A stretch of DNA of 64,000 bases from Zingiber officinale (taxonomy: Eukaryota > Streptophyta > Magnoliopsida > Zingiberales > Zingiberaceae): NCBI RefSeq assembly GCF_018446385.1, contig NC_056002.1, forward strand, positions 11,232,894-11,296,893, read 5' to 3'. A model generated the notes under the pieces. The model was not told where the DNA came from and did no database searches. It was given only the letters and a program-made list of their open reading frames with translations. Of the stretch, positions 36,470-64,000 are shown one piece after another. A program made the position numbers and the translations under genes. Position 1 is the first letter of the stretch. Every line of letters starts with the position of its first letter.

Positions 36470-37520
36470 TAAGTCTCCCCCTCAAGTCTAGTTGAAAGAC
36501 GCTGCAAGTTCAACTGACTGGACAAGTGGTGCCTTAGGCAATTTTCAAGTCCGAGCAGACTGTTCTCGTCCGATCGGACAGTGCTCGGTCCTTAATTGCC
36601 GATTGACTCATAAGCCAACGCCACTCGAGTTCATTTTGTCGTTGCCAAGTTCAACCTTATGATCCATTCTTCGCGCCGATCGGGGCGATGAGCAGCAACA
36701 CCTGGCAAATTATCGTCCTCTCCTTGCGCTTTCTTGGGCGAGCGCGGTCTCGACTGACGTCATCTAAATTTCTCGAAGACCGTGCAAATCCTTGATAATT
36801 ATGGTCGAGCACACGAACATACCTTTTAATTAAGTGACTTAAATGTTGCCCGATGACCGAAGGACACGTGTCTCACACTGCCGCCGCACGCTCGATGTGG
36901 TAGGCGGATATCCGCTTGCGACGCGACATACGCCTTTTCAAATTCAACGGTTGGATTTGCTTCTAGGTTTTCATAATTCTGGATCAGACGATTGAGGTTG
37001 ACCGACCGCGAGGTTTATAACCCTCGCGTGTGTCATCGTAAAGTTCATTTCATGTGCCTTCGTCTTTGAGCTTCATGTCGACTCCTTGCTTCTTCTTCCT
37101 CTCCGACGACTGTTTCTGTAAGCTTCCATTTCCTCACTCCAATTTTGTCGTTGTTCTTAGCGTTCTCTCTGTCAATCGAACTTTCTCGTTGTTTCCTGTC
37201 GACCTTTGTTTTCTATGGCAAGCTCCTTGCAACCTCTCATCTTCGTCCCTAAGCTCTGGTACACGTCCATCGAGTCCAAGTTTGGCAGAGGCGACGCTGA
37301 GAGCTTGAGAGCCTCTTTTGAAATTCCACCTGGTTATCAAATCGGCCTTCCTTCGGCCTTCGACCATCCGAACGATTTGCCTCCGAGTTTTGTATTTAGG
37401 GACCAATTTACCATCGGTCTGCGATTCCCTGTCCACCCCTTCTTTTCAGCAGTCTATAAATACTTTCTTATTTCTCTCCACCAATTAGTCCTGAATTCCT
37501 TTAGGTTGCTATGTGGGGTT

Positions 37521-39033
37521 TGTTAGGACCAAAAGTAGCTAGAGGGGGGGGGGTGAATAGCTCGTCGCGTTCGCTCGGTGCTTGGCGTTGATTGTTTCTT
37601 CAAGAATATGCAGCGGAAAATACAGAAACAAATACACCCACGCTAACACTAGGATTTTACTTGGTATCCACCTCCAAAGGAGGTGACTAATCCAAGGATC
37701 CACACCACGCACGCACCCTCCACTATGAAACACTCCTTTTCGGTAACTACCGAGGGCGGAGAAGCCCTACAAGACTCTCAGTACAAGAAGAAAGGAAAGG
37801 GAAACAAAATACAAGCACAAAGCTTACAATGAATGCAGAAAACCCTAACCCTAGCTTCTCTTCTTGCCTTTGATCCGCCTCTTGACTCGGAGAGCTTCCA
37901 AGAACCTTCAAGAACCTTCACGAGCTGGCGAGAGCTCTGGAGTGAATCGATGAAAAGCGATGCCGCAGCCATCGACGCCTGCAGCTATAAACGACATTAA
38001 CGGTCGGATCCCGATCGATTCGAATATTCCCAATCGATCGGGAGGCTTTGGATCGATCCACGGATCGATCCGAGCGCCTGTTCTGAACGAACCACGGATC
38101 GATCCACGGATCGATCCGGCGCTTATCGCGGAGGGCCCCCAATCGATCCATCGATCGATTGGGACCTCTGATCGATCCACGGATCGATCCGAGTCTCTGA
38201 GGGACAGTCGGATCGATCCACCGATCGATCCAGCGCTGGATCGATCCATCGATCGATCCAAAGACTTGATTTTGTCCAAACCAAGTCCTAAACCTCTCAA
38301 ACCAACATCCGGTCAACTTGAACTGTTGGTATGTCATGCCTAGCATCTAGTCACTCCCTTGACCTGCTAGGACTCCCTTACCAAGTGTCCGGTCAATCCC
38401 TTTGACCCACTTGGACTTTTCTCTGTGCCAAGTATCCGGTCAATCCCTTTGACCTACTTGGACTTTTCTTTCATGCCAAGTATCCAGTCAATCCTTTGAC
38501 CTACTTGGACTTCCCAACACCAGATGTCCGATCATCCTTGATCCATCTGGATTTTCCCTTGCCTGGCTTCACTCACCAGGACTTTCACCTAGCTTCACTC
38601 ACTAGGGTTTTCCATCTGCCTAGCTTCACTCACTAGGACTTTCACCTGGCTTCACTCACCAGGATTTTCCATCTGCCTAGCTTCACTCACTAGGACTTTC
38701 ACCTGGCTTCACTCACCAGGATTTCCATCTGCCTAGCTTCACTCACTAGGACTTTCACCTGGCTTCACTCACCAGGATTTCCATCTGCCTAGCTTCACTC
38801 ACTAGGACTTTCACCTGGCTTCACTCACCAGGATTTTTCATCTGCCTAGCTTCACTCACTAGGACTTCCTTCTGCCTAACATCCCAGTTAGGACTTCCCA
38901 GTCAAGTATCCGGTCAACCTTGACCTACTTGACTCTTCTTCAATTAACATCTTATTGTCAAACATCTAAACCCAAACCAAGACTCAGCTTGGTCAAACAG
39001 GTCAACCTTGACCTGAGGGATGTTGCACCAACA
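37521..39033 (-). repeat. 3' LTR of element C
   Basis: On the minus strand it begins TGTTGGTGCAACATCCC and ends GGTCCTAACA. It contains a cluster of short palindromes (about 38011-38261) and a tandem array with CTTCACTCACTAGGACTTTC units (about 38562-38880). Confidence 0.9.
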
Positions 39034-41443
39034 ATCTCCCCCTTTTTGATGTTTGACAATACCACAATAACACTTACAATCCCATATGTAAGTTAGGCTA
39101 ATCCCATAACCTCCTTCTTCATGCCACTAGGTAATGAAAGCATAAATTAAGCTCTTCATTCTCCCCCTAAGAGGGCAAACTCCCTCTAGGTAATGAAAGC
39201 CTAACTTACTCCCTTTCATGAGTCCTTTCATTCTCCCCCTATGACCTTCCCATAGGTAATGAAGGCCTAAACTTAACCATACATTCTCCCCCTATTGGCA
39301 CACATCAACCCATCGTTGGACACACATCAACCTATGCTCCAATTCTGGGCACACTTCCAACAAATCCATTTGTTGAAGACTCTCCCCCTGAAGAGTTGCT
39401 CATCGTGATCACAACTTCACTCATTGTGATCACCCGATAATGAGATCCCATAACCGTCATTATCACCTTAACTTCTCCCTCAATGTTGACAAATACCCAA
39501 CCTTGAGCATTTTCAACCACTTGAGTGTCCACTTGAAATAATGAGGATATCCACTCCCCATTTCTCCCCATTTCAAGTTTAAATGCTCAACCTTGAGCAA
39601 GTTCACAACAGAAGGTTAACCACCTTCCAAGGTTCATGAAAAATAATTGTCATGTCTTTAAAGAGTCCCTCCCCCTAAAGACATGGTGGTAACTTCTGTC
39701 ATTGCACCAACAATGACTTGGAATCCCTAAAACATTAGGAAACCCAAATTTAGAAGTTTTGAGGTTCAAATATTCAAAATTTGAAACAACCTCAACCTAA
39801 ACTTCTACTTAGTCTTCCTTAACCAATCCATCATTGTTTTCGCATGAAAACACCCTTTTTATGGATACAAATGTATTTTTAGGGGTTTGGAATGGTTACC
39901 TAGACTCAAAGAGGTTCAAAGATGCTGAAATCAAACCTTCCCAGCCAAAATCAGCAACTTGGATCGATTGGAGTTGGGTTCCAATCGATTGAACCTTTCT
40001 GAATCGATCCACTGATCGATTCAGACTCCCTGGATCGATCGGCTGATCGATCCAGCGAGCTTCTGCTCGCGGGAATTGCCGTTTGAATCGATCCATGGAT
40101 CGATTCAGGAACTCCAATCGATCCATGGATCGATCGGAGCTCTGATAGTTGCTGAAATTCCATTTCAGTCAACTTCAGAAACCCCTAGAAAATTCTACAA
40201 AAATCCAAAAACTATGAAATTTCGTGTAGACATTATTTAGGGCGTTTACAATCACGGAAAAATAGTTTTCTATGAAAATACTTCATATTTTCAAAGATTG
40301 ACACAAACTTGAAAACTTGCAAAAACTTTAGTGTTTCTCTTCAAGTTTGTGTCTAACTATTCAATGGTGATTACTATCAAAAGATAGCCTTCACCAAGGT
40401 TTTCCAAAAACATTTTAAAAACATTTTCAAAACCAATATCCCATCACATTCCTTGGGCTTAATGCACATGACTTGTACATTAGCTTTCCCAATGATGGGG
40501 AAACACATAACTATGTGTTTTGATGAATTTAAAACTCAAAGGAATGCACTAAATCAACATCTTGAGTTTTGTTCATCATCCTAACATCTCACTTGTATCT
40601 AATGTGCACTAAAACACATACAAGTCACCTTATAGTCTTTGTGAGATGTAGATTTTGGTTTTACCCTAATCTAGGGATCATGCATATCTATCTAGGCATT
40701 TTAGAGATATTAGACATCCACCTAGGATGTCACTTGTTAATAAGTGTTGTTAAATTCTATTTGTCCTTAATTACAAGGAATTAAACTAATGCATGATAAT
40801 GTTATGGCATACATCAAAATAAAATAACTTTCAAAAGAAAGATTCCTATAACTACATGATGTATGAATGTCATGACATGGTATTTTTGAGTTTTTCATAG
40901 TAAAACATGAATGCAAAAATAGACATGATGTCATGGCATGTGATAGGCAAACAATCATGGCAAGATTTAGCATAAATAAAATATACCTAGATTAACTATC
41001 TAAGTATCCTTAAAGTCTTAGCTAAACTTACAACTTAAACCTAGATTGCCCTAAAGTGCTTCAAGAGAATGCCAAAACCTAAATTGGCATTTCTAATTTC
41101 CTTGATTTAATGTATGCCAATTGAAAATAAACATGTCCTCAAATGTTGGCATATTCCATTTTTCCTCAAGAGTGATTACATAAATCAAGGCCCGGATTGC
41201 CTTAAATTTCCAAGAGAATACCAATATCCCAACTTGGTATTTCTCAAGGTTTTCCAAATTTGTGCCATTTAAGATAAAATCAACTTTTCACCATTAGGCA
41301 CATTTTACTCTTTCAATGAGTAAATAATAATTCCATTTCATTTTCAAAGGTTAACAAAAACCTTGAAAATGCTCCTTGAGTGTCAATTTCCTCAAAGTTG
41401 GGTTAACTACCCTTCTAATAGGAGTTGACACTCTCTAACCCAT
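39034..41443. other. non-coding interior of element C
   Basis: No reading frame with recognisable retroviral enzyme motifs was seen on either strand. A second cluster of GATCGATC-type palindromes lies at about 39957-40140. The rest is AT-rich with many short repeats of the CCTAGATT and CAAAACTT type. Confidence 0.6.
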
Positions 41444-43225
41444 CTATGGGGTAGAGAAGATGCTCCTAGGAACCCAACACCTATTGGTGCTCCTTGGATG
41501 CTCTAGGTACTCACTAGGGATAACTTCCCTATATACCTTCCTAGTGACCTTGTTGGGCTTCTTAGAAGCCTTGGTCACATTTTCTAGGTCAACTCTAGGG
41601 ATAGCCTCCCTTGTAACCTTGTTCGTGACTTTCTTAGACTTCTTAGAAGTCTTAGTCACTTTGGTTGCAAAGATACTTCTAGGGATATCTTCCCTTGTAT
41701 CCTTGACTTGACCTCTAGACTTAGGGTTCGTTCCATAACTATATGGAACCCTATGATAACTAGGCACATCCTTCTTAGCTTTTGGTTTGTATCCCAAACC
41801 TTTATGGCCATTGGATGGCTTTGATTTTCCTAAACCTAAGTTATGCTCACGTTGCCCTAATAGGATATTTTCCATCATTTTTAGGGTCTTCTCCATTTTA
41901 TCAAGTCTTGACCTCAAGACTTGATTTTCTCTCACTAAGTCCTTAGTATTTGTTCCATGAGCATTTTTGTTTCTAGGCTTGTATCTTAAATCCTTAGAGT
42001 TATCGCCTAGGTTTTTACCTACATTCCTAGCCTTAGGGATAGTAGTTTTGGCATGTAGGGCCACATGCTTTTCCTTAAATCCCTCATGCTTCCTATTCTT
42101 ATGGTAAATCGCATTAAAATGATAAAAATTTGACCTAGCATGCTTTTTACCATTTTGCAAGGGAATAGGCTCAATGAAAGTTACCTTCCTTTTTACCTTG
42201 GAGGCTCCCCCTTGACTGGTACCTCCTTGAGCCGTGACCACCTTCTTCCCCTTGGGGCATTGACTTCGGTAATGCCCTTTTTGGTTGCAAGAAAAGCACA
42301 CAATGTGCTCCTTGCTCCTTTTTATTCCGGGGATGGTCTCCTTGGGCTTCGCCTTGCCCTTTTGTGCCACTTGGCCCTTCTTCTTGACCAATTTAGGGCA
42401 CTTGCTCTTGTAGTGCCCATGTTCCCTACACTCAAAGCATATAATATGATTTTTACTTTTAATTGAAATATTTATACCTTTGCTTGTAGGGGTGGCATCT
42501 TTCCCTTTGGATCCGGAGGTAGAAGCTTCCTCTTGATCCGATCTTGATTCTCCTCCATTTGATTTTTCTTGATTCGTGGAGGTAGAAGCTTCTTCTTCAA
42601 TCTCTTCATCTCTTGACCTGGATGTAGAAGCTTCTCCTTCTTCTTGATCCGGTGTCACCAAGGATTGCTCCCCCTCAATCCTAGAGGTGGAGGCTTCATC
42701 ATCTTGAATATGAAACAAGGAGTATGCTCCCTCCTTGTTCCCTTCGTTGCATTCCCTTGAGGATGAAGCTTCTTGGATCTCCTCTTTTTCGGAGGTTGAG
42801 CATCTCTCAACCTCGGAGCCCTCCTCTTGGTCTTGCTCCAAAGAGTCACCCTCTCTGGATATTTCTTGCTCTTGTACAGTGGAGGGGATCTCTTCATGAA
42901 GCTTGGCCAATTTGCTCCATAGTTCCTTTGCATCTTCAAATTCTCCAATTTTGCAGAGGATGGTGCTTGGCAATAAATTGACCAAAAGCTTGGTCACTTT
43001 GTCATTGGCCTCGCACCTTTGGACTTGCTCTTGGCTCCACTTGCTCCTTTTGAGTACTTTGCCCTTGGAATTTGTGGGAGCTTCAAAACCTTCCATAAGA
43101 GCAAACCATTGCTCTATCTCCATCATAAGAAAATTTTCGATTCTTGATTTCCAAGAATCGAAGCTTGTAGATGAATATGGTGGAGCCACCCTTGTATCAA
43201 ATCCAAGTCCATCTTGGAATTGCAT
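41444..43225 (-). mobile_element. gag frame of element C
   Basis: The 593-codon frame begins MQFQDGLGFDTRVAPPYSST and includes the gag-like core WKSRIENFLMMEIEQWFALM and FEDAKELWSKLAKLHEE. It has an acidic serine- and glutamate-rich middle and two CCHC zinc knuckles (CFECREHGHYKSKC and CFSCNQKGHYRSQC). The C-terminal part is lysine-rich and basic. The paired knuckles and long acidic linker fit SIRE-type Copia gag. The frame looks whole. It would package RNA into virus-like particles if enzymes were supplied by another element. Confidence 0.85.
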
Positions 43226-43345
43226 CTTGAAGTTGAGCTTCTTGAAATCTTTGACTTTTGATGAATTTGCTTCAACTTCTTCACCCTCTAGCTTTTCTTG
43301 TTATACTTGACCCTTCCGGCGATGATTCCGGTGAAGAGCGGTCTC

Positions 43346-43357
43346 GCTCTGATACCA
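43346..43357 (-). other. primer binding site of element C
   Basis: TGGTATCAGAGC, two bases inside the 5' LTR, matches the 3' end of plant initiator tRNA-Met in complement. Confidence 0.9.
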
Positions 43358-43359
43358 CT

Positions 43360-44995
43360 TGTTAGGACCAAAAGTAGCTAGAGGGGGGGGGTGAATAGCT
43401 CGTCGCGTTCGCTCGGTGCTTGGCGTTGATTGTTTCTTCAAGAATATGCAGCGGAAAATACAGAAACAAATACACCCACGCTAACACTAGGATTTTACTT
43501 GGTATCCACCTCCAAAGGAGGTGACTAATCCAAGGATCCACACCACGCACGCACCCTCCACTATGAAACACTCCTTTTCGGTAACTACCGAGGGCGGAGA
43601 AGCCCTACAAGACTCTCAGTACAAGAAGAAAGGAAAGGGAAACAAAATACAAGCACAAAGCTTACAATGAATGCAGAAAACCCTAACCCTAGCTTCTCTT
43701 CTTGCCTTTGATCCGCCTCTTGACTCGGAGAGCTTCCAAGAACCTTCAAGAACTGGCGATCACGAGCTTTGAGAGTGCTGTAGAGGAGCTGGCGAAGATC
43801 TAAGATGAAACGGTAAAGCGATGCCGCAGCCATCGCACGCCTGCAGCTATAAACGACACCAACGGTCGGATCCCGATCGATTCGAATATTCCCAATCGAT
43901 CGGGGAGGCTTTGGATCGATCCACGGATCGATCCAGAGCGCCTCTGTGCTCTGGAAAAACGCCTGAATCGATCCACGGATCGATCCAGCGCTTATCGCGC
44001 GAAGCAGCAGCGTCCCAATCGATCCACTGATCGATTGGGACCTCTGGATCGATCAACGGATCGATCCAGAGGCTCTCTGTTCGCTGGGACAGGTCTGGAT
44101 CGATCCACTGATCGATCCAGAGCCTGGATCGATCCAGAGCCTGGATCGATCCACTGATCGATCCAGCACTTGATTTTTATCCAAACCAAGTCCTAAACCT
44201 CCCAAACCAACATCCGGTCAACCTTGACCTGTTGGTATGTCATGCCTAGCATCTAGTCACTCCCTTGACCTGCTAGGACTCCCTTACCAAGTGTCCGGTC
44301 AATCCCTTTGACCCACTTGGACTTTTCTCTGTGCCAAGTATCCGGTCAATCCCTTTGACCTACTTGGACTCTTCTTTCGTGCCAAGTATCCAGTCAATCC
44401 TTTGACCTACTTGGACTTCCCAGCACCAGATGTCCGATCATCCTTGATCCATCTGGATTTTCCCTTGCCTGGCTTCACTCACCAGGACTTTCACCTAGCT
44501 TCACTCACCAGGATTTTCCATCTGCCTAGCTTCACTCACTAGGACTTTCACCTGGCTTCACTCACCAGGATTTTCCATCTGCCTAGCTTCACTCACTAGG
44601 ACTTTCACCTGGCTTCACTCACCAGGATTTCCATCTGCCTAGCTTCACTCACTAGGACTTTCACCTGGCTTCACTCACTAGGATTTCCATCTGCCTAGCT
44701 TTACTCACTAGGACTTTCACCTGGCTTCACTCACCAGGATTTCCATCTGCCTAGCTTCACTCACTAGGACTTTCACCTGGCTTCACTCACCAGGATTTTC
44801 CATCTGCCTAGCTTCACTCACTAGGACTTCCTTCTGCCTAACATCCCAGTTAGGACTTCCCAGTCAAGTATCCGGTCAACCTTGACCTACTTGACTCTTC
44901 TTCAATTAACATCTTATTGTCAAACATCTAAACCCAAACCAAGACTCAGCTTGGTCAAACAGGTCAACCTTGACCTGAGGGATGTTGCACCAACA
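43360..44995 (-). repeat. 5' LTR of element C
   Basis: It is nearly identical to the 3' LTR except for expansion of the palindrome cluster (about 43871-44166) and the CTTCACTCAC array (about 44468-44840), which accounts for the 120-bp length difference. Confidence 0.9.
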
Positions 44996-47280
44996 GGGTT
45001 GTCATCCTTTTCCGTCTGCACGACATTCCTTTGACCCCCTTAACTCTTCCACTACTTCTACTATCCTAAATTGTCCGAGCCGAAGACCTTCCTCTTCCAA
45101 GCCCAAGTGGGTTTGGTCTTCTTCGATAAGATGCCCTCCTCCAATAAGCATTGGAAGGACTACTATTTTTTTTGTTAAATTCCCCGAGTGGCTCGATTTC
45201 TTGACCGGCTGGCAACTTAAAGTGGCGAACCCGCTGGAACTCAAGAAGTATAGGAGTTGATCGGACTACCTCCATGCGGCTTCACACTTGGCCGGTCAGA
45301 AGTACCACATTCACAAGTTGCTGCATAAGGGAGTCCTCTACGTGTTCGTCTTGAGCCCGATCAACACAAAGCTCCCGTCCAGCCTAGGTATGCTCTCATT
45401 CTTCTCATTCGTTGAATCTAATTGATTTTTCTCCTTTTTTGCAGTTCACATCATGCTAAGGGCGTGTCTGGCTGGCAAGAGCAAACTTACGGACGCAGAG
45501 ATCAATGCTGCGCCCGTAGCCGAACTGGAGAGTCATGGCTTGCAACCAGTCGGCTCGTAAGAAGATCTGCTTGGAGAGAGCGCGGGAGTGCCAGCGCAAG
45601 GGAGTGAAGGGGTGGCCAGCTGGATGGCTACTAGTGAAGCGATGGGCATAGTGAATCCTCCACTAGAACTACTCTCGATGACTCTGGTCGACAGGGCCTC
45701 GAAATCGGCTTCTTCCGAGGAGCCGCTGATCAGCCGAAAGAGGCGCTGTGGGGAGGCCGCCTCCCGATCCGCTTCCTCCGCGATGCGATCCCCATCTAGG
45801 ACCAACCCGCGCCTTCCTTCTGAGTAGGGTGAAACCTCTACGCCTGCTTCTCAAACGGCGGTCATTCCCCATACGTCCCTATCGTCCGATCGAACGCCTT
45901 ACCTATCCGAGCTGCCACAAGGAACCATCTGCGCGCCATCGGTCGCTTTCATACCGCCTCCACTGCCGAAGGCTCAGAAGTCTTACATCCGACCGGCGTA
46001 AACGTCTCAGTCGGTTGGCAAAGCAACTCAGCCTCATCTGCTTTGAGTGGCCGACATCATATAACGACGGTCATCCATCTACCTACGAACGAGTGGCGCG
46101 ACTCCGATAGCGCTAAATCCCGACCCCCCGAGTACCAAATAATTATCCAAGGGCCACTCGCACAGATATGGGCCGACGCCCAAGCTCGAGCGGTGGTCAT
46201 ACCTCCAGGGGTGCTTGCCGACAGTCATACCCAGATGTCCACTGGGGTAAGTATTTTATTTGTATGTTCCTATTTATCATCGCTCAGCCTTAATAAATTT
46301 TTTGCTTCCTCGTAGTATTGGGTAGAAAGTCTCACCATGTGCCAAAGGCTCGCATTTTTGGAGCAAGAAGTTAAACAACTGTGTGCCCTGAGCGGCCAGG
46401 CATCGGCTTCTCAAGCATAGCTAGAGCAAATAAGCACTGAGATGGCTCAAATAAGGGTCGATCTGAGTAAGAGCTCGGAGCAGCTGGAGGCAGAGAAGAG
46501 CAAAGGTGCCAAGCAGACTGCTCAATTGGCTCGGCTTGATAAACATGCCGACTCCTTCGAGTCCAAGATTAACTTGGCCAACACAGGAAGCTCCGAGCCA
46601 TCGAGGACTTAGAGATAAAAAATAAGGAGTTTTGGGTGCTGGCTCAAAACATAAAGGATATGGAGGCCTCGCTAAATGCTGAGAGGGAGAGAAGGTCAGC
46701 CGAACACTCTGCCACGAAGACCCAGCTCATCGCCAAAGATGAAGAGTTAGCCAAGTTGAAGGAAGAGTTGAATGCCTCCTGAACGACCTTAGAGACTTAT
46801 CAGGGAGCCAAGTCGAGCAAATTTGAGCTGCAAAAGAAAGCCTACCTCTGCTAGGACGCTTTCAACGACAGGGTCACCGACCAGGCTCTTCGCCTCTTCA
46901 ACCTCGTGATCAATGGGGCGCTCGACCAACTTAGGGACGGCGGCTACATTCCGGTTACTCTGACCAACAAGGTCATCAGCCGAGACAAGCTGACTAAGTC
47001 GCTACCCGACGATGTTTTAGATTATCTTGAGTGAGCTTGTTCGTGCAAGTTTTGATTTTGCAATTTTTTGAAGTATCAATGAATGATCGTTTGTCCGGCG
47101 AACCCTTGATTATTTGTCCCCTTCTTGTCGTTCGACATTTTTGGTTCAACTTGCATTTAGTTCATGCATAGTCGCGCAAACTTGAGCAAATTTGAGAGTT
47201 GCTTATACCCCTTAGTGCGGCTTTGTGATCTTCCTATCGACAATGGGCTATCTGTCTTCATAGCCGATGGATCAGTTCCG

Positions 47281-53289: not shown

Positions 53290-54837
53290 CTAAATTAACT
53301 AATAAAAATCTAAAGTATAATTTAGAATATAATTCTTTAATCTTTAAAATTTCATATTCAAGGCTTAGGAAATTAGAAAAACAAATCAATTTTTTAAAAA
53401 ATAAAATTCATAAACAAGAATAGATAATTAAGTCATTAAATCTAGACTTGAATCACAAGTCTAAACCAAATCTAAGATATAATGAAATTAATCAACAGAT
53501 ATAATTCAAATAATTTAATTAATTTAAAATTAAATTAAAAACTTAAACTTAAATTTAAATTAAAAATTAAATCTTAACTAAAACTAATCTTAATTATAAA
53601 AAAATCTTAAAAGAAAAATTAATAATTTAGGGGGAGGCTCCAGAATAACTGGTACCTCCAAAACTAACTTACCCGAAAGGGTAACCAAAAACTAACCTAC
53701 CAGGTAGGGTAATTAGGACTAGTTTAAAAAGGGACAATAGTTTAACTTGACTTACGGTATTGGTGAAATTTTAGATGATAGTACGTTAGGGAAAGTATGT
53801 CTATGCATGTCTAGGAAGATATGACTTCGACCTGGTGCATTTGGCTTAGTGGAACTAACCGAAGCTACCCCTTACGGATCCTAACTAGTTTGACTAAGGT
53901 TTTGTACTAAGTTCAGTGGATAGGACTATTTGAAAAACTTCGAAGACATGGTTACTCTAATGATGTCCAAATGACTCATCATAGCCCAAAAGTTTATCTA
54001 GAGAATGCCTATTTGTTGAGCCCAAAGCTAAATCTGAATTTAACACAAAGTTAAACCAACCCTAAAATTGAACATAACTTCATCTCACGAAAATTATAGG
54101 TTTCCCTGATTGAAAACATAGATCAGGTGAGATGACTAGCGACTTCGAACCGAATCAAGTCAAATCGAATCGAATCGAATCAAATCAAATCGAACCGAAT
54201 CGAATCGAACCAAGTCGATCAAATTAAATTAAAATTAAAATAAAATAAAAAAAAATTAAAATTAAAATTAAAATTTTAAACTAAACTAAATCAAATTAAA
54301 TTACTTTACAAAAATTTTAACTTAAAAATTATTTTAAAAATTATTTTAACTTAAAAATTACATTAAACATTATTTTAAATTAAAAATTTACATAGAAAAT
54401 TTATTTTAACTTATTTTTAAAATTATTTTAAAATTCATTTTAACTAAAAAATTATTTTTAAAAAAACAATTATATTAAAAAATATTTTAAAAATTATTTT
54501 AACATAAAAAATTGTTTTAAAACATTATTTTAAAAATTAACTTAAAAATTTATTTTTAAAAAAAAATTAACTGAAAAATTATTCTAAAAATTATTTTAAA
54601 ATTAACTTAAAAATTCTTTTAAAAATGTATTTTAAAAAACATTAAAAATCATTTTAAAATTTCTTTTAAAAAATCTTTTAAAAATGTATTTTAAAAAAAA
54701 CTTTAAAAATCATTTTAAAAAATTCTTTTAAAATTTGCTTTAAAACTTTAAAAACCATTTTCTTTTATTTTTTTTTTAAAAAATGTATTTTAAAACTTTA
54801 AAAATCATTTTAAAATTCTTTTAAAACCTTTGCAAAT
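53290..54837. other. AT-rich interior of element D
   Basis: A segment with TGGTACCTCCAAAACTAAC resembles the spacer after gag in this family. The rest is low-complexity: AATCGAATCGAATC at about 54150-54215 and TTTTAAAAATT-type repeats at 54240-54830. No coding sequence was recognised. Confidence 0.5.
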
Positions 54838-55627
54838 TGATCCTGTCCGAATGCTGAATCAACGGACGCTGGGTACGTGGCGCTCCCCGGCTGCTGACGT
54901 GGATCTTCGACTGGTTGCACGAACCTCCTGCGAACCTGCACAGAAGTCGGGCCGGGAAGGGGTTCCCGACGTCGACCCTCCGACGCTCAAGTCAGGTAAG
55001 CAAGTAGTGAAAAAAGTGGCTCCAAAGGTGTTCCACGCGTACCTCCGGCGAAGTTTAAGGCTCTTTATATAGAGCGATGGAGAAGCGAGTGTACACCTAC
55101 CGAGGTGTACACGTGTCAGCGGCCCATACCCCAGTAAGGACTTGTCAGTGAGCTTACCTGACCCATACTGCTACAGTCCAAGCATGTCCTCGATGGGACA
55201 GCGGAACCCCCTGTCATAAGATTTGCAGTATGGCCTACATGTGGAACATACCCGCTGTCAGAAAAAGATGTCCCTTGTCCTTTTGCCCTTACTCCCGGTT
55301 GAGAGTCCGACCGGCCGGCTTCCGCGACATTCGGCCGGACGTATGCGGTAGTTTACTTGGGGAGATTCTTACTCACGTGCTTTGTGGAGACTGTTAGCAG
55401 TGCTACCTGATGGCTTTGGCCGAGCGTGCAATCCGATCGGCCCTGCGATCTTGTCCGCTGAGCGCCGGAACCCTGACTTTCGACGAGACACCTTCAACCA
55501 TCAACTAGACACCGGCCGGCCGCCCGACCAGTCGAACCCGCCCCTCTCCGCCCGGCCATCTGCTACTTTGACTTCCACGTGGCGTTGACTCCTCCGGACG
55601 GGGGCCCCTGCTCTTACAACCGGATCA
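54838..55627 (-). repeat. 3' LTR of element B
   Basis: A 790-bp LTR reading TGATCCGG...CAGGATCA on the minus strand, with a TATATAAAG motif near 55060. It matches the ends of the solo LTR at 15334-16143. A purine tract (GAAGGGGAGGCAAG) abuts it. Confidence 0.88.
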
Positions 55628-55996
55628 CTTGCCTCCCCTTCAAGTCTAGTCGAAGGAGGTGATTAGTCCGACTGACTGGACTACTAGCCTAGCCGAGCGG
55701 CATCTTCAGGAACTCCTCTTCCGATCGGCTTCCTGCAGGGATGGCCTTGTAAGGTTGGTCAACAGCAACCTTCCTCGGATCTCCTCGTAACCCGTGCCAA
55801 TCTTCAACATTAAGGCTGAGCATACGCTCATTAAATGCATCGAATGACCAAACGCCACGTGGCGAACTGTCGTCATCATATGGCTGCGGCGGTGTGGTGC
55901 TTTGATGGGATCGAGGCAGTTCGAAATGGACGGCGCGATGTGCGCTTTGATTCCCGTGACCTGGATCCAACGGTGGAGGTCGCCCGGTCTCCACCC

Positions 55997-56003
55997 TATA
56001 AAA
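55997..56003 (+). promoter_or_regulatory. TATA box candidate of the antisense ORF in element B
   Basis: TATAAAA lies about 280 bp upstream of the ATG at 56284. The sequence just before it (CTGGATCCAACGGTGGAGGT) has a recognisable counterpart before the TTTATAA near 37015 in element A. Confidence 0.45.
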
Positions 56004-56283
56004 TCTTCATTTGCTCCGCCGTTGCCTCACTCCTCCTTGCGCGTGCCCCCAGTTATTCGTCTCGTTCTAGAGCTCCGGCGATCGTGTTCTCCTGCTTTCG
56101 TTGATCCTCGGTGTTCTTCCCTCGATCCTCTTTTTTTTCCCGTAAGATTCTCTCCTTTTCTTTCTCGTCTCCGGTACTTTCTTCGCATTTCTTTCCCCAG
56201 TTTTCGCTTCCAGGGTGCTCTTTTCACTTGATACCGTCTTTCTTCTACCTTTCTGCCTTTTTGATTTCTCCCGCTCGGATCAT

Positions 56284-58464
56284 GGCTAGTTCTTCTCATC
56301 CTGAAGACCAGTCCCTCGGTCCATGGTACACTACCATGCAGTTTCGATTCGAACAGCGGGACTTCGATGTTCTGATAGACAATTTTGAAATCCCAGAAGA
56401 TTTCAAAATTCCTTCCGCGACCAGTTTACCGTCGGTCTGTGTTTCCCTGTACATCCGTTCATCATAGATGTTTGTAATTTTTTCGGTGTGCCGCTCGGCA
56501 GTCTGGTACCCAACACCTTTCGTCTCCTCTGTGGTATTGTTGTTTTGTTCAAGATTCACAACATCCCCCTCCGACCGGAGGTCTTTTTTTATTTCTATTA
56601 TCCCAAGCAAGCTAAGCCGGGCACTTTCATGTTCCAAGCTCGGCCAGGCTTAGTCTTCTTCAACAAACTACCCTCTTCCAATAAACATTGGAAGGAGTAT
56701 TTTTTCTACATCCGTATGCCTGATCGGGCCAACTTCCCGACCCAGTGGCAGGTCAGCCTACCCCCCACTCCCGAGCTGAAGAAATTCAAGACCCGACCGG
56801 ACTACCTCCATGCTGCAAATATGCTAGTCGGTCTGTGCTTTAACATCAATAAGCTTCTTCACGAAGGAGTGATGTATATCTTCGGCTTGAGTCCCATACA
56901 GACTCCTCTTCCGACCAGCTTCGGTAAGAATTTTACTTCGGCGTTTGCTTTGATTGCTAACTGATTTTTCTCCTTTCCTTTGCAGCGGACATCGTCATGG
57001 AGTCGGTGATGGCCGACATTCTGAAGAGAAAGGCGGCGGCGCTCGAAGCCGCTGCAGCCAAAGAAATGGAAGCGCTGGGTATCCATCCGGTCGGATCCCA
57101 TGAAGGAGAAAGCGGGACTCAGGCTGAGTCAACCGCTCCGACTTCTCAACAGAACGTGGCAAGCGTAGCCACTCCCAGCGGAGGACAAACTGCCCCTGAA
57201 GAAGGTTCCGCTCGGGAAGAGGGACAACCTCTACAAAAGAGGCGCCGAGTGGAGACTCCCCTTCGATCGGCTACCTCCGCGATCCAACCATCCGAGCGGG
57301 TCACTGCGACTGCTCGGGGCAAGGAGCCAGAGGTCGAAGCCATTTCGTCCGACCGGACGCCTTCTGAATGGGACGAGCCGGCTGCTCCAATTGAGGTTTC
57401 TCCGGTCAGCACCCTTCCGCCCGCTCGTCACTCAGTCCAGCGCTCAACCATTCATTCCCAGTTTTCTACGCCGGCTTCTGATCCCCTTCCGACCGCCGGT
57501 CGGACGACCCCCGGTCATGGCCGCACGATTCGGGTCACTCTTCATCTCCCGACTGAAGAGCTGCTGCCAGAGGCCGACCGACCAACCGCGCCCGAGCACA
57601 CCATTACCTTGAAAGGGCCCCTAGCTGAGATGTGGGCTGATGCTCGGGCACGCATCGCGCTGATCCCCCTCCGAAACTTGGCCAATAGCCACATGTAGGA
57701 GGCCACGGGGGTAAGTTCACTTTCTCCGAAGTTTTGTATGCATTCTTTCCGATCGGCCACTAACAATTCTAATTTTCTTTTGCCAGAGATGGGTGGAGGA
57801 GATTGCAGTCTCCAACCGCCTAGCCATGGTGGATGAAGAACTGAGACAACTAAAGGCGGCAGTCGGTCCGTCCGGCTCTCACGGCCCTTCATATTCTGAG
57901 CTGCAAAAGGAGCTGAAGAAAGCTCAAGCTTTGTTGGCGGCCGAGCAAAAAAAGACGGTCGATCAGGCCCATGTCTTGGCCGAGTTCGAGCGACAAGTCA
58001 AGTCGCTCGACACAAAAATAACCTTCGCCACCACTCAGAAAAACACGGTCATTTCCGATTTAGAAAAGAAGAACGTGGAGACTCGGGGCTTGGAGCTGAA
58101 GGTAAAGGAGCTGACGGAGCAGCTGGACAAGGAGAAGGTGGGCCGCTCGGCCGACGCCACCAAGCATAAGGACGAGCTGACCACTTTGCAGGAATCCCTC
58201 GCTGCATCTCAATTGGCCTTCAAAGAGCACCAAGAGGCCGAGCCGAGTCGGGTTGCTGCTCTGAGACAGGGCTACATCCGCTCGCCCGAATTCTCGGCGA
58301 AAATCTGCGAGCGGATGTACACAGCTTTCGACTTGGCTTTGACCGCCACCATGACATATCTAAAGTTTCAGGGCCTTCTTCCGGAGTCCACTACTATTCC
58401 AGCCGGCGATCAGGTGGCGCTTCTGGATAACATCCCCAAGACCCTTTATGATTACATTGAGTAG
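56284..58464 (+). other. antisense ORF region (aORF) of Gypsy element B
   Basis: This is part of the fossil retroelement, read opposite to pol. It contains a gypsy-type transposase-like domain (pieces such as FFYFYYPKQAKPGTF and NKLPSSNKHWKEYFFYIRMP), a low-complexity middle with ERVTATARGKEPEVEAISSD, and a coiled-coil-like C-terminal block (LEKKNVETRGLELKVKELTE) ending TLYDYIE. GT-AG intron-like gaps lie at 56924-56985 (62 bp) and 57711-57786 (76 bp), each with a pyrimidine tract before the AG. It has a few breaks. Extra antisense ORFs of this kind are known in Tat-lineage elements and their function is unknown. Confidence 0.7.
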
Positions 58465-58820
58465 CCGTCGGTAGATGTAGTTGGGCCGCTAGGCCAAAAA
58501 GTGATCCTTTTTTGTACTTAGGCCGCTCAGCCTAAAGTTTTAATTTTAATGCAACATTTCCCTTTCGCGTACTTTGTCCTTTTGCTAGTTAATGTGTGTT
58601 GTCCGCTCGCCTATTATGAGGTGTAAGTATTTGTCGTTGCCCTTCCGCTCGGCTAAATATGTAATATTTCCAATATGCAACATTCCGCTTTGATAGCAAA
58701 GATCGCTCGCTAGACACCGATGAAGTACCTTTGGGTACTGGGCCGAGCGGAACGTAGAGACGATTGAACGATATTGCCGGCGAGTTTCTTGGACAATTGC
58801 ATCCTTTTTATTGGCCTCTT
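58465..58820. other. spacer after the aORF of element B
   Basis: Non-coding sequence with several CCGCTCGG motifs, probably including the aORF 3' end signals. Confidence 0.4.
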
Positions 58821-59095
58821 CCGCTCGGAGGGTTTATAGACGCCGGCTCGTCTCTCGATATTTAACGTCGGAGCTCGACGGTCTTCCGCTCGGAGGGTTT
58901 ATAGACGCCGGCTCGTCTCTCGATATTTAACGTCGGAGCTCAACGGTCTTCCGCTCGGAGGGTTTATAGACGCCGGCTCGTCTCTCGATATTTAACGTCG
59001 GAGCTCGACGGTCTTCCGCTCGGAGGGTTTATAGACGCCGACTCGTCTCTCGATATTTAACGTCGGAGCTCGACAGTCTTCCGCTCGGGGGGTTT
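58821..59095. repeat. 65-bp tandem array in element B
   Basis: Four full units and a partial fifth begin CCGCTCGGAGGGTTTATAGA at 58821, 58886, 58951, 59016 and 59081, and are nearly identical. Confidence 0.95.
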
Positions 59096-62000
59096 GCCAT
59101 TCTTCAATTATTTTGGCTTCCTGCGTTACAATGGCATGGGCGACTAGAATATACACGAAAATGAGTTACATCAGTGCACCTTTCACCTAGCTCTATAAGG
59201 CTGGAGATGATTTGCACTCCATGGCCGATCCAGCTGCCGTCCGTCTTCATCCTCCAAATAGTAAGTGCCCGAGCGGAGCTTTTCGATGATTTTGAAAGGA
59301 CCCGCCCACGGAGCTTCTAGCTTGCCGACGTCGCCGACCGACTTCACTTTCTTCCAGACAAGATCGCCGACCTGGAATGATCTTGGGATTATGCGCCGGT
59401 TGTAATTCTGCTTCATCCTTTGACGGTACGCCATCAGCCGGACGGATGCCTTGGCTCTCTCTTCTTCGACCAAATCCAGCTCCATGTTCCTCCGCTCGGC
59501 GTTGTTGTCATCATAATTCTGGATCCGACTGGACTCGACGCCAACTTCGACAGGAATAACTGCTTCGCCGCCATACACCAGATGGAAGGGTGTGACTCCA
59601 GTCCCTTCCTTCGGGGTCGTTCGGATGGCCCATAAGACGCCGGACACCTCATCCACCCAGCTTCCTCCCATATGGTCGAGCCGAACGCGCAAAATACGAA
59701 GAATTTCCCGATTGGCTACTTCGGCTTGACCATTGCTTTGGGGATATGCCACGGACGTGAAATGTTGCTCGATGCCATAGTTTTTGCACCAATCTTCGAG
59801 CAACTTTCTTGTGAATTGTCGCCCATTATCGGAGATAAGCCGACGGGGGATGCCGAATCGACAGATGATGTTCTGCCAAATAAATTTCTTGACCATCTGC
59901 TCGGTGATCTTGGCTAGCGGCTCGGCCTCCACCCACTTGGAAAAATAATCAACCGCCACCAATAAAAATTTCCGCTGTCCGGTCGCCATAGGAAACGGAC
60001 CCACAATATCCATTCCCCATTGGTCGAACGGACAAGAGACAGTAGCGGCCTTCATTTCCTCCGCCGGTCGGTGAGAGAAATTATGATACCTTTGACAAGA
60101 AAGGCACGTCGCGACTGTCTGAGCGGCGTCTGCTTGTAAAGTTGGCCAAAAGTATCCGGCCAGCAGTATCTTTTTAGCTAGTGATCGCCCGCCCGGATGA
60201 CCCCCGCACGATCCTTGATGCACTTCTTGAAGGATGTATGCCACATCTTCTGAACTCACGCATTTCAGAAGCGGGCGGGAGAAAGTCTTCTTGTATAGCT
60301 GATCTCCAATGAGCGTGAACCGACCGGCTCTCCTCCTCAGTAGCTGGGCCTCATCCCGATCGGACGATGTAGCACCCGAGCGGAGGAACTCCATGATGGG
60401 TGTCCGCCAGTCGCTCGGAAATGTGAGGCCCTCCATCCGGTCGACGTACGCCACCAAAGATACTTGTTCAATTGGCTGTTGGATGGCGATCGGCGTTATT
60501 GAGCTTGTAAGTTTGGCCAACTCGTCAGCCGCTTGGTTCTCCGCTCGGGGTATCTTCTGGATAATAACTTCTCTAAAGTCGGCCCTGAGTTTCTCGAAGG
60601 CTTGAGCGTAAAGCTTGAGCCGAGCGTTGTTGATTTCAAAAGTACCTGTGAGCTGCTGAGCGGCCAATTGGGAGTCTGAATGTAGCGTTACCCGTCCAGC
60701 CCCTACATGCCGGGCGGCCTGTAAACCAGCTATAAGAGCTTCGTATTCTGCCTCATTATTTGTAGCTCTATAATCCAGCCGGACGGATAAGTGCATCTTC
60801 TCTTCTTGGGGAGACAACAATAATACACCAATACTACTCCCGAGTCGAGTGGACGATCCGTCTACAAATACCTTCCACATGGCTTCGGGCTTGGGCCTTT
60901 GTACCTCGGTGACGAAATCCGCCAAGGACTGCGCTTTTATCGCCGGCCGGGGCTAGTATTGAATGTCGAACTCACTTAATTCCGTTGTCCATTTGATGAG
61001 CCGTCCGGATGCTTCTGGATTCAGCAATATTCGTCCGAGCGGACTATTAGTTTTGACAATAATGGTATGCGCCAGGAAATATGGGCGAAGGCGTCGAGCG
61101 GCGAGGACCAAAGCGAAAGCAAGTTTCTCGAGCCCGGTGTAGCGAGATTCAGCATCTTTTAAAATATGGCTCAGAAAATACTCAGGCTCTTCTCCGCTCG
61201 GCCTTACTAATGCTGAGCCAACGGCTTGTTCAGTAGAAGATAAGTAGATACAAAGTGGCTCGCCTGCAGCCGACTTGGCTAATACCGGGAGAGAGTTCAG
61301 ATATGCCTTCAAATCTTCGAACGCCCGATCGCATTGTTCGTCCCAGTGAAACTTGGTGGCTTTGCGTAAGATTTTGAAAAAAGGTATGCTCCGGTCGGCG
61401 GTTTTTGAGATGAATCTGGACAGAGCAGTTATCCGACCGGTCAAGCGCTGCACTTCCCTCAAATTTCTTGGGGGTGGCATGTCTTGTAGAGCTTTCACCT
61501 TGCTGGGATTGGCTTCGATGCCCCGCTCGGTCACTATGTAACCTAAGAAGCGCCCTCCTTTTGCTCCGAACAGGCACTTCTGGGGATTTAGCTTGACTCC
61601 ATATTTGCGTAGCGTTCGGAAGGTTTCCTCCATGTCTTTGAAGAGATCGGCCGCTCGGACGGACTTGATGAGAATGTCGTCCACGTACACTTCCAGATTT
61701 CGCCCGATCTGCTCTCTGAATACTTTATTCATCAAGCGCTGATATGTGGCTCCCGCATTCTTCAATCCGAACGACATCACATTATAGCAATAGGTGTCGT
61801 CGGCCGTCACGAAGCTGACTTTTTCTCGATCTTCACGGGCGAGCGGCACTTGATGATAGCCTTGATAAGCGTCGAGCATACATATTAATTCGCAGCCGGC
61901 CGTAGAGTCCACTAGCTGATCGATCCGGGGCAGAGGATAAAAGTCTTTCGGGCAAGCTTTGTTGAGATCCCGAAAATCTATGCATACTCTCCACTTGTTG

Positions 62001-63143
62001 TCCGGCTTGGAGACTAATACTACGTTCGCCAGCCAGCTCGGAAACTGCACCTCGCGTATATGGCCGGCTTCCAGAAGCTTCTCCACCTCCGCCCGGATGA
62101 TGGCATTCTGCTCGGCGCTAAAATCTCTTTTTCTCTGCTTTACTGGCCGAGCGTCCGGTCGGACGTGGAGCTCATGCTGCGCAATACTTGGTGAAATTCC
62201 GGGTAGCTCATGTGTCGACCAGACGAAGACATCATGGTTTCTTCGGAGGCATTGGATCACCTCCTTTTTCTGATTTGCCTCTAGATCGGACGCGATGAAT
62301 GTCGTGGCCTCCGATCGGGTCGGGTGTATTTGCACTTCCTCTTTTTCTTCGTAAACTAAAGAGGGAGGCTTTTCAGTTATAGCATTCACCTCGATCCGTG
62401 GCGACTTCCGAGCGGAATTTGCTTCTGCTCGGACCATTTCGACATAGCATCACCGAGCTGCCAGTTGATCTCCCCGTACTTCTCCCACTTTGTCTTCGAC
62501 AGGGAACTTGATCTACTGGTGGAAGGTGGAGACGGCCGCCCGGAACTCGCTGAGCGCCGGTCGTCCCAAAATGACGTTGTATGACGAGGGAGAGTCGACC
62601 ACCACGAAGTTTGCTGTCCGCGTCCTCCTGAGCGGCTCTTCTCCCAGTGAAATAGCCATCCGGATTTGTCCGACCGGCAGGACTTCATTGCCCGTAAACC
62701 CGTAGAGGGGGGTTGTCATGGGCAGCAGCTCGGCGCGGTCAATTTGTAGTTGATCGAACGCCTTTTTGAATATTATGTTGACCGAACTTCCTGTGTCAAT
62801 AAAAATGCGATGAATAGTGTAGTTGGCTATTACCGCTTTGATGAGCAGAGCGTCGTCGTGGGGCACTTCAACTCCTTCCAAGTCCCCCGGCCCAAAACTG
62901 ATTTCGGGTCCGTTCGCCCGTTCCTGGCTGCAGCCGACCGCATGGATCTGGAGCTGCCGGACCCTCGCCTTCCTTGCTCGGTTGGAATCTCCTCCGGTCG
63001 GCCCGCCAGCAATAATGTTGATCTCGCCTCGGGAAGTATTACTTCTATTTTCTTCTTCCCGAGCGAATGGTCGGGACCGTTCTCTTGACATTCGGCGATT
63101 CTCCAGCCTCGGAGAACGATGACGATCGGGAGTCTGTTGTTGT

Positions 63144-64000
63144 TGTTAGGATCCTTCGTACGGAGGCTAGAGAGGGGGGTGTGAATAGCCGACCTCAAAT
63201 TCGCTTTCTTTCTACAAATCGAGTTAGCAGCGGAAATAAAACAGTAGAAAGGAAACGGTGAGAAGATCAAACCTCAAACTCGATGGATGTAACGAGGTTC
63301 GGAGATGAACTCCTACTCCTCGGCGTGTCCGTAAGGTGGACGAAGCCTACCAATCCGTCGGTGGATGAGTCCCCGGAGAACCGACTAATACAATATACTC
63401 CTTCTGGGTGGAGAAACCTCACCACAATGTTTCTTGCACAAGCAAGATAGGAGTACAACAAATACAAGAAAGCAAAAAACAATATGAAACACTTGCTTGC
63501 CTTTCTTGTTGACTGGAGTGATGAAGCAGCAGCTTCACACCAGCAGCAGCTGACGAGAATCCAGTCGAGAAGCTCACGCGAAGCTTCAGCTGCGAGGAGC
63601 TCAGCAAAGCTCTGATAGCAGGTAAGAGCAGAAGCTCTAGAGCACAAGAACAGAAGTTCTAAGGAGGAAGCAGTGGCAGCAACGAAGCCCTGTAGCTTCT
63701 TTTATACCTGCGAAGAAAAACACGAAGGAATATAGCCGTTGCGTCGCAACGGCTAGTGCCCTGATCGGTCCACAGACCGATCAGGAGTGTGCCTGATCGG
63801 TCCACAGATCGATCAGCGCTTTCTCGAACTCCGCTAGCTTCGATCGTGCTCGATCGGTCGTGGGGACCAATCAGTATGGCCGATCGGCGACCGATCAGGC
63901 TTATTGAGTGCGGCCTCGCACTCGAGATATCGCTGATCGGTCTTGCACCGATCGGGCTCCATCGATCGGTCCCGCACCGACCGCGGTAAGCTCACGTAAT
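63144..64000 (-). mobile_element. SIRE-like LTR F, runs off the window
   Basis: It starts TGTTAGGATCC and continues with CTAGAGAGGGGGGTGTGAAT, the same layout as the LTRs of element C (TGTTAGGACC then CTAGAGGGGGGGGGGTGAAT). It has a cluster of GATCGGTCCACAGACCGATC palindromes at about 63768-63985. It interrupts element B next to a TTG repeat. The right end is outside the window, so it is unknown whether this is a solo LTR or a full element. Confidence 0.7.

Follow-up and report, generated by a model that had tools for sequence, protein, structure and literature searches.

A probable split antisense gene with its own TATA box, conserved among Tat/Retand-type Gypsy elements of Zingiber officinale

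In the window, the whole 64,000-nt stretch of Zingiber officinale DNA analysed here, the antisense region of a Gypsy element (element B) very probably holds a conserved accessory gene of Tat/Retand-type elements, in which three exons, two spliceosomal introns and an internal TATA promoter of its own are predicted to yield a protein of about 700 residues. At the DNA level, the gene structure was found together with its conservation in three families (A, B and C), selection on the spliced frame, a TATA box kept in B and C, and zero spliced copies at the scanned sites. The points against this reading are a weak splice-site test in B, the lack of a clear TATA box in A and an intron 1 that is read through in one subfamily of C. 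The observation of the first-pass annotation, an antisense gene with two introns and a TATA box mirrored in elements A and B, was confirmed and is stronger than originally claimed; its interpretation is supported overall by the sequences compared.

Element B lies on the minus strand in the internal order pol, 65-bp repeats, antisense region and 3' LTR (Table 1). Its pol domains follow the Gypsy order: a protease-like domain scoring below the curated cut-off, reverse transcriptase with RT_RNaseH, RVT_3/RNase_H and integrase. A second RNase H domain is a mark of Tat elements. Reverse transcriptase, RNase H and integrase are encoded on the minus strand and the gene on the plus strand, which bears out the earlier claim that the gene runs opposite to pol. 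The 3' LTR is about 791 bp long, and on its outer side homology to the loci L002-L008 starts at 54833-54838. The region between pol and the 3' LTR (55628-59182, about 3.6 kb) is inside the range of 2.9-6.6 kb given by PMC11963269. An antisense TRP28 ORF is present in this region in B and in two loci of family C. Judged by its domain order with two RNase H domains, the length of this region, the antisense TRP28 and the tandem repeats, B is classed as a Tat/Retand-type Gypsy element. A probable mate of its LTR is found at C17:11304165-11304914 (97% over 750 bp). The right flank of the window was also considered as the place of the 5' LTR and was rejected, nested-element-like sequence being found there instead. 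Past position 64000, element B seems to be interrupted by another nested element (L059), where a second copy of the stretch 63143-64000, 87% identical, occurs farther on.

Table 1. Features of elements B and A in the window
Feature	Positions	Strand	Remarks
3' LTR of element B	54837..55627	-	inner edge at window ~55627, where six LTR-only matches stop (query 827-830)
TATA box TATAAAA	55997..56003	+	internal region; 285 nt before ATG 56282; ~370 nt inward of 3' LTR
Candidate 5'-UTR intron GTAAG...CCCAG, 59 nt, weak	56142..56200	+	kept in most B copies
Exon 1 of B, Transposase_28 (TRP28, PF04195)	56282..56923	+	E 5.6e-7 for 56389-56922; window copy frameshifted, ~55 nt missing
Intron 1 of B, 62 nt, phase 1	56924..56985	+	branch-point-like CTAAC 29 nt from end
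Exon 2 of B, linker with basic cluster QKRRR	56986..57710	+	stop at 57696-57698 in window copy
Intron 2 of B, 76 nt, phase 0	57711..57786	+	branch-point-like CTAAC 27 nt from end
Exon 3 of B, coiled-coil-like, weak SMC-model match	57787..58464	+	runs to stop codon 58464
65-bp tandem repeats, 4.3 copies	58817..59095	.	between antisense gene and pol of element B
pol of element B	59183..63145	-	protease-like, RT, two RNase H domains, integrase; several open stretches
Exon 1 of A, first part, ahead of nested insertion	37215..37523	+	48% identity, 105 aligned residues
LTR element nested in A exon 1	37520..44995	.	repeats 37520-39033 and 43359-44995
Exon 1 of A, second part, stops and frame change	44998..45387	+	alignment to B gene
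Intron 1 of A, 57 nt, phase 1	45388..45444	+	same residue as B
Exon 2 of A, stops	45445..46246	+	alignment to B gene
Intron 2 of A, 69 nt, phase 0	46247..46315	+	same residue as B
Exon 3 of A, stops and frame change	46316..47032	+	alignment to B gene

Both gaps of the B gene begin with GT and end with AG exactly where the first-pass annotation had placed them. The predicted protein consists of an N-terminal TRP28 domain, a linker with the basic cluster and a C-terminal coiled-coil-like part. Coiled coils easily match SMC-type models, and the SMC matches of exon 3 (E 0.0044 in B, 6.4e-5 in C) are far below the curated cut-offs. A search for relatives of the antisense protein by sequence in the PDB returned none at E 0.1, and a scan of IMG/VR gave 14 pattern matches with no true relative among them. 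A single-sequence AlphaFold prediction of the TRP28 exon had a mean pLDDT of 38.9 and was discarded.

The genome of the window (3.09 Gb, 211 contigs) was the scope of all genome scans. The first search yielded 7,579 B candidates, of which 40 were scored, and 24,226 TRP28 candidates, of which 150 were scored. The B alignment holds 21 copies, namely the window's and the best 20 of the other 39. Among them exon 1 measures 697 nt in 11, exon 2 725 nt in 16 and exon 3 678 nt in 10, and from these modal lengths phases 1 and 0 follow for introns 1 and 2, which are 62 nt long in 21/21 and 76 nt long in 18/21, respectively. The window's own copy is dead through the exon 1 frameshift and the stop late in exon 2, and the spliced frame is open throughout in two of the 21. 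In the four copies with exons of 697/725/678 nt, the spliced frame contains 0-2 stops, versus 6-24 if either intron or both are left in.

A further candidate intron in the 5'-UTR of B has well-kept ends (G 20/21, T 20/21, A 19/21, G 21/21 copies) and a core diversity of 0.18. No YTRAY word was found when searched for in it, and GTAAG was absent from all 10 upstream stretches of family C inspected for such an intron; support for this intron is thin. The candidate spans two diverged leader variants among the 21 B copies. These copies split into leader/promoter variants (55701-56281 of the window, and L039-L058), and one group shares only about 78-79% identity with the window's leader, yet the exon 2 attached to it is 95-98% identical. 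This mismatch suggests recombination between subfamilies, possibly by template switching.

In element A, pol aligns to the pol of B in the same orientation, and its gene is likewise opposite to pol. The two gaps of A also agree with the earlier description, starting with GT and ending with AG. The A gene starts at ATG 37215, its exon 1 is split by a nested LTR element, and its pieces are 31-65% identical to B, both introns lying at matching residues. The window's copy of A is dead, with several stops besides the nested insertion. The repeats of the nested element are about 1.6 kb long and about 90% identical, with tandem repeats within. The claim of a TATA-like motif upstream of both genes stood for B, which has TATAAAA, and less well for A, which has no clear box: TATAWA is missing from the 615 nt before its ATG, and the TATA-like word present, TTTATAACC at 37014, is weak. 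The A sequence also contains a GTAAGC...TTAG stretch from 37118, which is short (43 nt).

Family C was recovered with the exon 1 Pfam profile as the only query, so that its loci were picked regardless of introns or TATA box. The C alignment comprises 29 of the best 30 TRP28 loci; in the one left out the match ended inside exon 1, yet this locus was counted in the TATAWA tally below. Compared with B, exon 1 of C is 27-38% identical (45% in one short match) and exon 3 about 21% over 149 residues; at two loci the C gene is antisense to a pol 57-71% identical to that of B. Intron 1 of C interrupts the same codon in the same phase as in B. Intron 2 was seen in six of eight downstream stretches, the motif search having missed two, and in the one copy measured its distance in residues after the [K/Q]G motif equals that of A and B. 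The three families thus have both introns at identical residues and phases, which makes the gaps more than chance.

The first-pass annotation proposed that across copies GT, AG and the TATA motif should be better kept than their surroundings, and the 29 loci of family C bear this out. In intron 1 of C, the diversity of GT/AG is 0.052 versus 0.300 in the intron core, a value matched or undercut in a fraction of 0.00125 of random 4-site draws. The individual bases are G in 29/29, T in 28/29, A in 28/28 and G in 26/28 copies, the acceptor being deleted in one copy. The TATA 9-mer has a diversity of 0.045, compared with 0.258 upstream and 0.344 downstream, and is the lowest of 316 windows. TATAWA occurs at most 450 nt before the ATG in 27/30 loci, compared with 18% in shuffled sequence, and lies 131-146 nt before the ATG in 24/30.

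In family B, the same proposal held in part. TATAAAA is invariant there (diversity 0 in 21 copies versus 0.187 in 40 nt of flank), ranking 26 of 630 seven-nt windows. The splice sites point in the same direction, with a GT/AG diversity of 0.036 against 0.127 in the intron core, a signal that is weak alone, 0.068 of random eight-site draws being as low. GT-AG is intact in 20/21 copies at intron 1 and in 18/21 at intron 2. When the splice bases were left free in the genome scan of B, the matches listed had GT at the donor and AG at the acceptor, with two exceptions each. In each of the four introns of A and B, a YTRAY word lies 26-29 nt before the end, and pyrimidine makes up 70-85%, as counted without a shuffle control.

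The coding signal follows the joined frame. Among the 21 B copies, diversity is 0.048 at codon positions 1 and 2 and 0.124 at position 3 (p 7e-32), next to 0.127 in the intron core, and the codon-position signal is present in all three exons. Across 210 pairs of B copies, dN/dS spans 0.11-0.68 with a median of 0.22; in the 120 pairs whose dS exceeds 0.2 the median is 0.18. In exon 1 of C, diversity at the three codon positions is 0.146/0.102/0.370 (p 3e-47, 29 loci). Codon positions and dN/dS show selection on the spliced frame; the signal is diluted because the copies carry neutral decay since insertion.

Retroelements copied through RNA are expected to lose introns. Intron loss was looked for with exon-exon junction patterns allowing one mismatch, a setting that diverged copies escape; the scans covered intron 1 of B and introns 1 and 2 of C, the exon-1 side of C being without a donor scan of its own. 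For intron 1 of B, the genome scan found 0 spliced junctions versus 1,131 acceptors and 1,367 donors. For C it found 0 versus 169 intron-bearing sites at intron 1 and 0 versus 160 at intron 2. Within the limits of the patterns, no copy was found that derives from spliced antisense RNA turned back into DNA. The counts fit the earlier claim that introns reading CT-AC on the sense RNA are spared from removal before reverse transcription.

The spliceosome does not use CT...AC. The introns would persist because in the genomic RNA that serves reverse transcriptase they stand as CT...AC and are retained, and every new insertion would then arrive with the complete split gene. On the other strand, host RNA polymerase II would start at the internal TATA box, and the antisense transcript would be spliced and translated into the protein of about 700 residues. 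The spliced antisense mRNA, having neither LTRs nor a primer site, could not become a new copy. The protein may work in the nucleus on the expression or integration of the element; such a nuclear, regulatory role is suggested by the nuclear protein of Grande and by the DNA binding predicted for TRP28 in published work.

The strongest of the other explanations, still rather unlikely, makes splicing a regulated switch, in which keeping intron 1 would give a short TRP28-only protein and removing it the full coiled-coil protein. In 10/21 copies, the unspliced reading of B ends inside intron 1 at residue 245, a little beyond the TRP28 exon, and in 11/21 damage in exon 1 brings an earlier stop; and HTLV-1 makes both spliced and unspliced antisense hbz (PMC10186651). 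Family C speaks against a general switch of this kind, since in 14/29 copies the frame continued into intron 1 meets no stop there (in 15/29 it does) and one subfamily reads through it. In this subfamily of two loci (L070 and L071), intron 1 is 87 nt long, stop-free and in frame, with the weaker donor GTGAAT, and in one of the two, exons 1 and 2 share one open frame of 826 codons. Elsewhere the length of intron 1 shifts the frame, as it does in 28/29 C copies. L070/L071 may be spliced optionally, or intron 1 may be turning into exon there.

Clearly unlikely is the proposal that the product is the antisense RNA as such, pairing with the genomic RNA and feeding or buffering small-RNA silencing, with the protein secondary. 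In its favour, the gene is convergent with pol and the idea was put forward in PMC7264820; against it, the codon-position signal in the three exons of B and a dN/dS of about 0.2 imply that the protein matters. RNA and protein roles could coexist. Recent capture of a host gene together with its introns, in place of an old gene of the element, is very improbable: host genes typically have introns and a TATA box, but the acceptor of B intron 1 occurs at 1,131 places, matching introns are found in the divergent A and C, and PMC11963269 reports similarity to TRP28 as confined to transposable elements. That the GT-AG pairs at the gaps arose by chance between independent antisense ORFs, translated singly or never, is scarcely credible, for although the survey in PMC11963269 gives antisense ORFs one at a time by ORF finder and the ORF listing of the window likewise has separate, unjoined frames, residue and phase are identical in three families, the splice dinucleotides of C vary much less than the intron core and the frame joined over both gaps has a dN/dS of about 0.2. 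The RNA-only, host-capture and chance-ORF readings are all put below the explanation by an accessory gene.

For a wider form of the accessory-gene explanation, the chances appear about even. Across flowering plants, the Retand lineage would carry one ancient three-exon antisense gene, with the TRP28 and SMC-like ORFs as its exons, the introns preserved for a very long time by an orientation that hides them from the copied RNA, and splicing possibly acting as a switch between short TRP28 and full coiled-coil products. Novel here are the conservation of the split structure and its age when set against family divergence, the zero detected intron loss and the suggestion that separately listed ORFs are exons. 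The gene provides a natural case of introns kept by orientation, with 0 spliced junctions versus 1,460 intron-bearing acceptors in two families, and the idea that antisense introns are invisible to retrotransposition becomes directly testable. Surveys of unspliced antisense ORFs may have cut one gene into pieces, and the antisense gene of Retand elements needs re-annotation of its conservation, length and domains ahead of functional work.

In Ogre and EVADE, the introns are located on the sense RNA. Among published systems, the closest are the antisense TRP28 ORFs that Vicient (2025, PMC11963269) reported for 97% of Retand clusters, placed between pol and the 3' LTR, with tandem repeats in about half of the clusters and Smc-like antisense domains in some. 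These ORFs, obtained by ORF finder, resemble the B gene in orientation, region, TRP28 domain and tandem repeats, and DNA binding by TRP28 has been predicted in published work (PMC11963269/PMC7264820). The main text of PMC11963269 does not contain "intron" and has "splic" only in a reference title. Unlike in that survey, TRP28 and the coiled-coil part are here exons of a single predicted gene, and TRP28 and SMC-like antisense ORFs annotated one by one elsewhere may have the same relation. A literature search covering mostly titles and abstract openings, with Gomez-Orte 2013 outside its coverage, turned up no account of conserved introns in antisense genes of this kind, and the consulted part of PMC3091746 has nothing on gene23 or introns. 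The first-pass annotation regarded extra antisense ORFs as known and the introns and promoter as new; TRP28 ORFs are indeed published and the introns are without a report found, but a promoter of its own was already described for Grande (PMC7264820).

Gene23 of maize Grande (Gomez-Orte 2013), as described in the citing papers PMC7264820 and PMC11963269, is antisense, has its own promoter and encodes a nuclear protein; compared through these papers, it shares with the B gene its orientation, place and own promoter. A look for antisense and spliced transcripts is called for in PMC7264820. The antisense genes of deltaretroviruses are alike in being spliced antisense accessory genes of an LTR retroelement, hbz of HTLV-1 also encoding a nuclear protein; hbz differs in its TATA-less promoter in the 3' LTR and its unrelated protein, and belongs to a different family that works alike (PMC10186651). 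Ogre and EVADE, notable exceptions among plant LTR retrotransposons in having functional introns and subgenomic RNAs made by alternative splicing (PMC12786077), resemble the present elements in their introns and differ in that the introns here are antisense.
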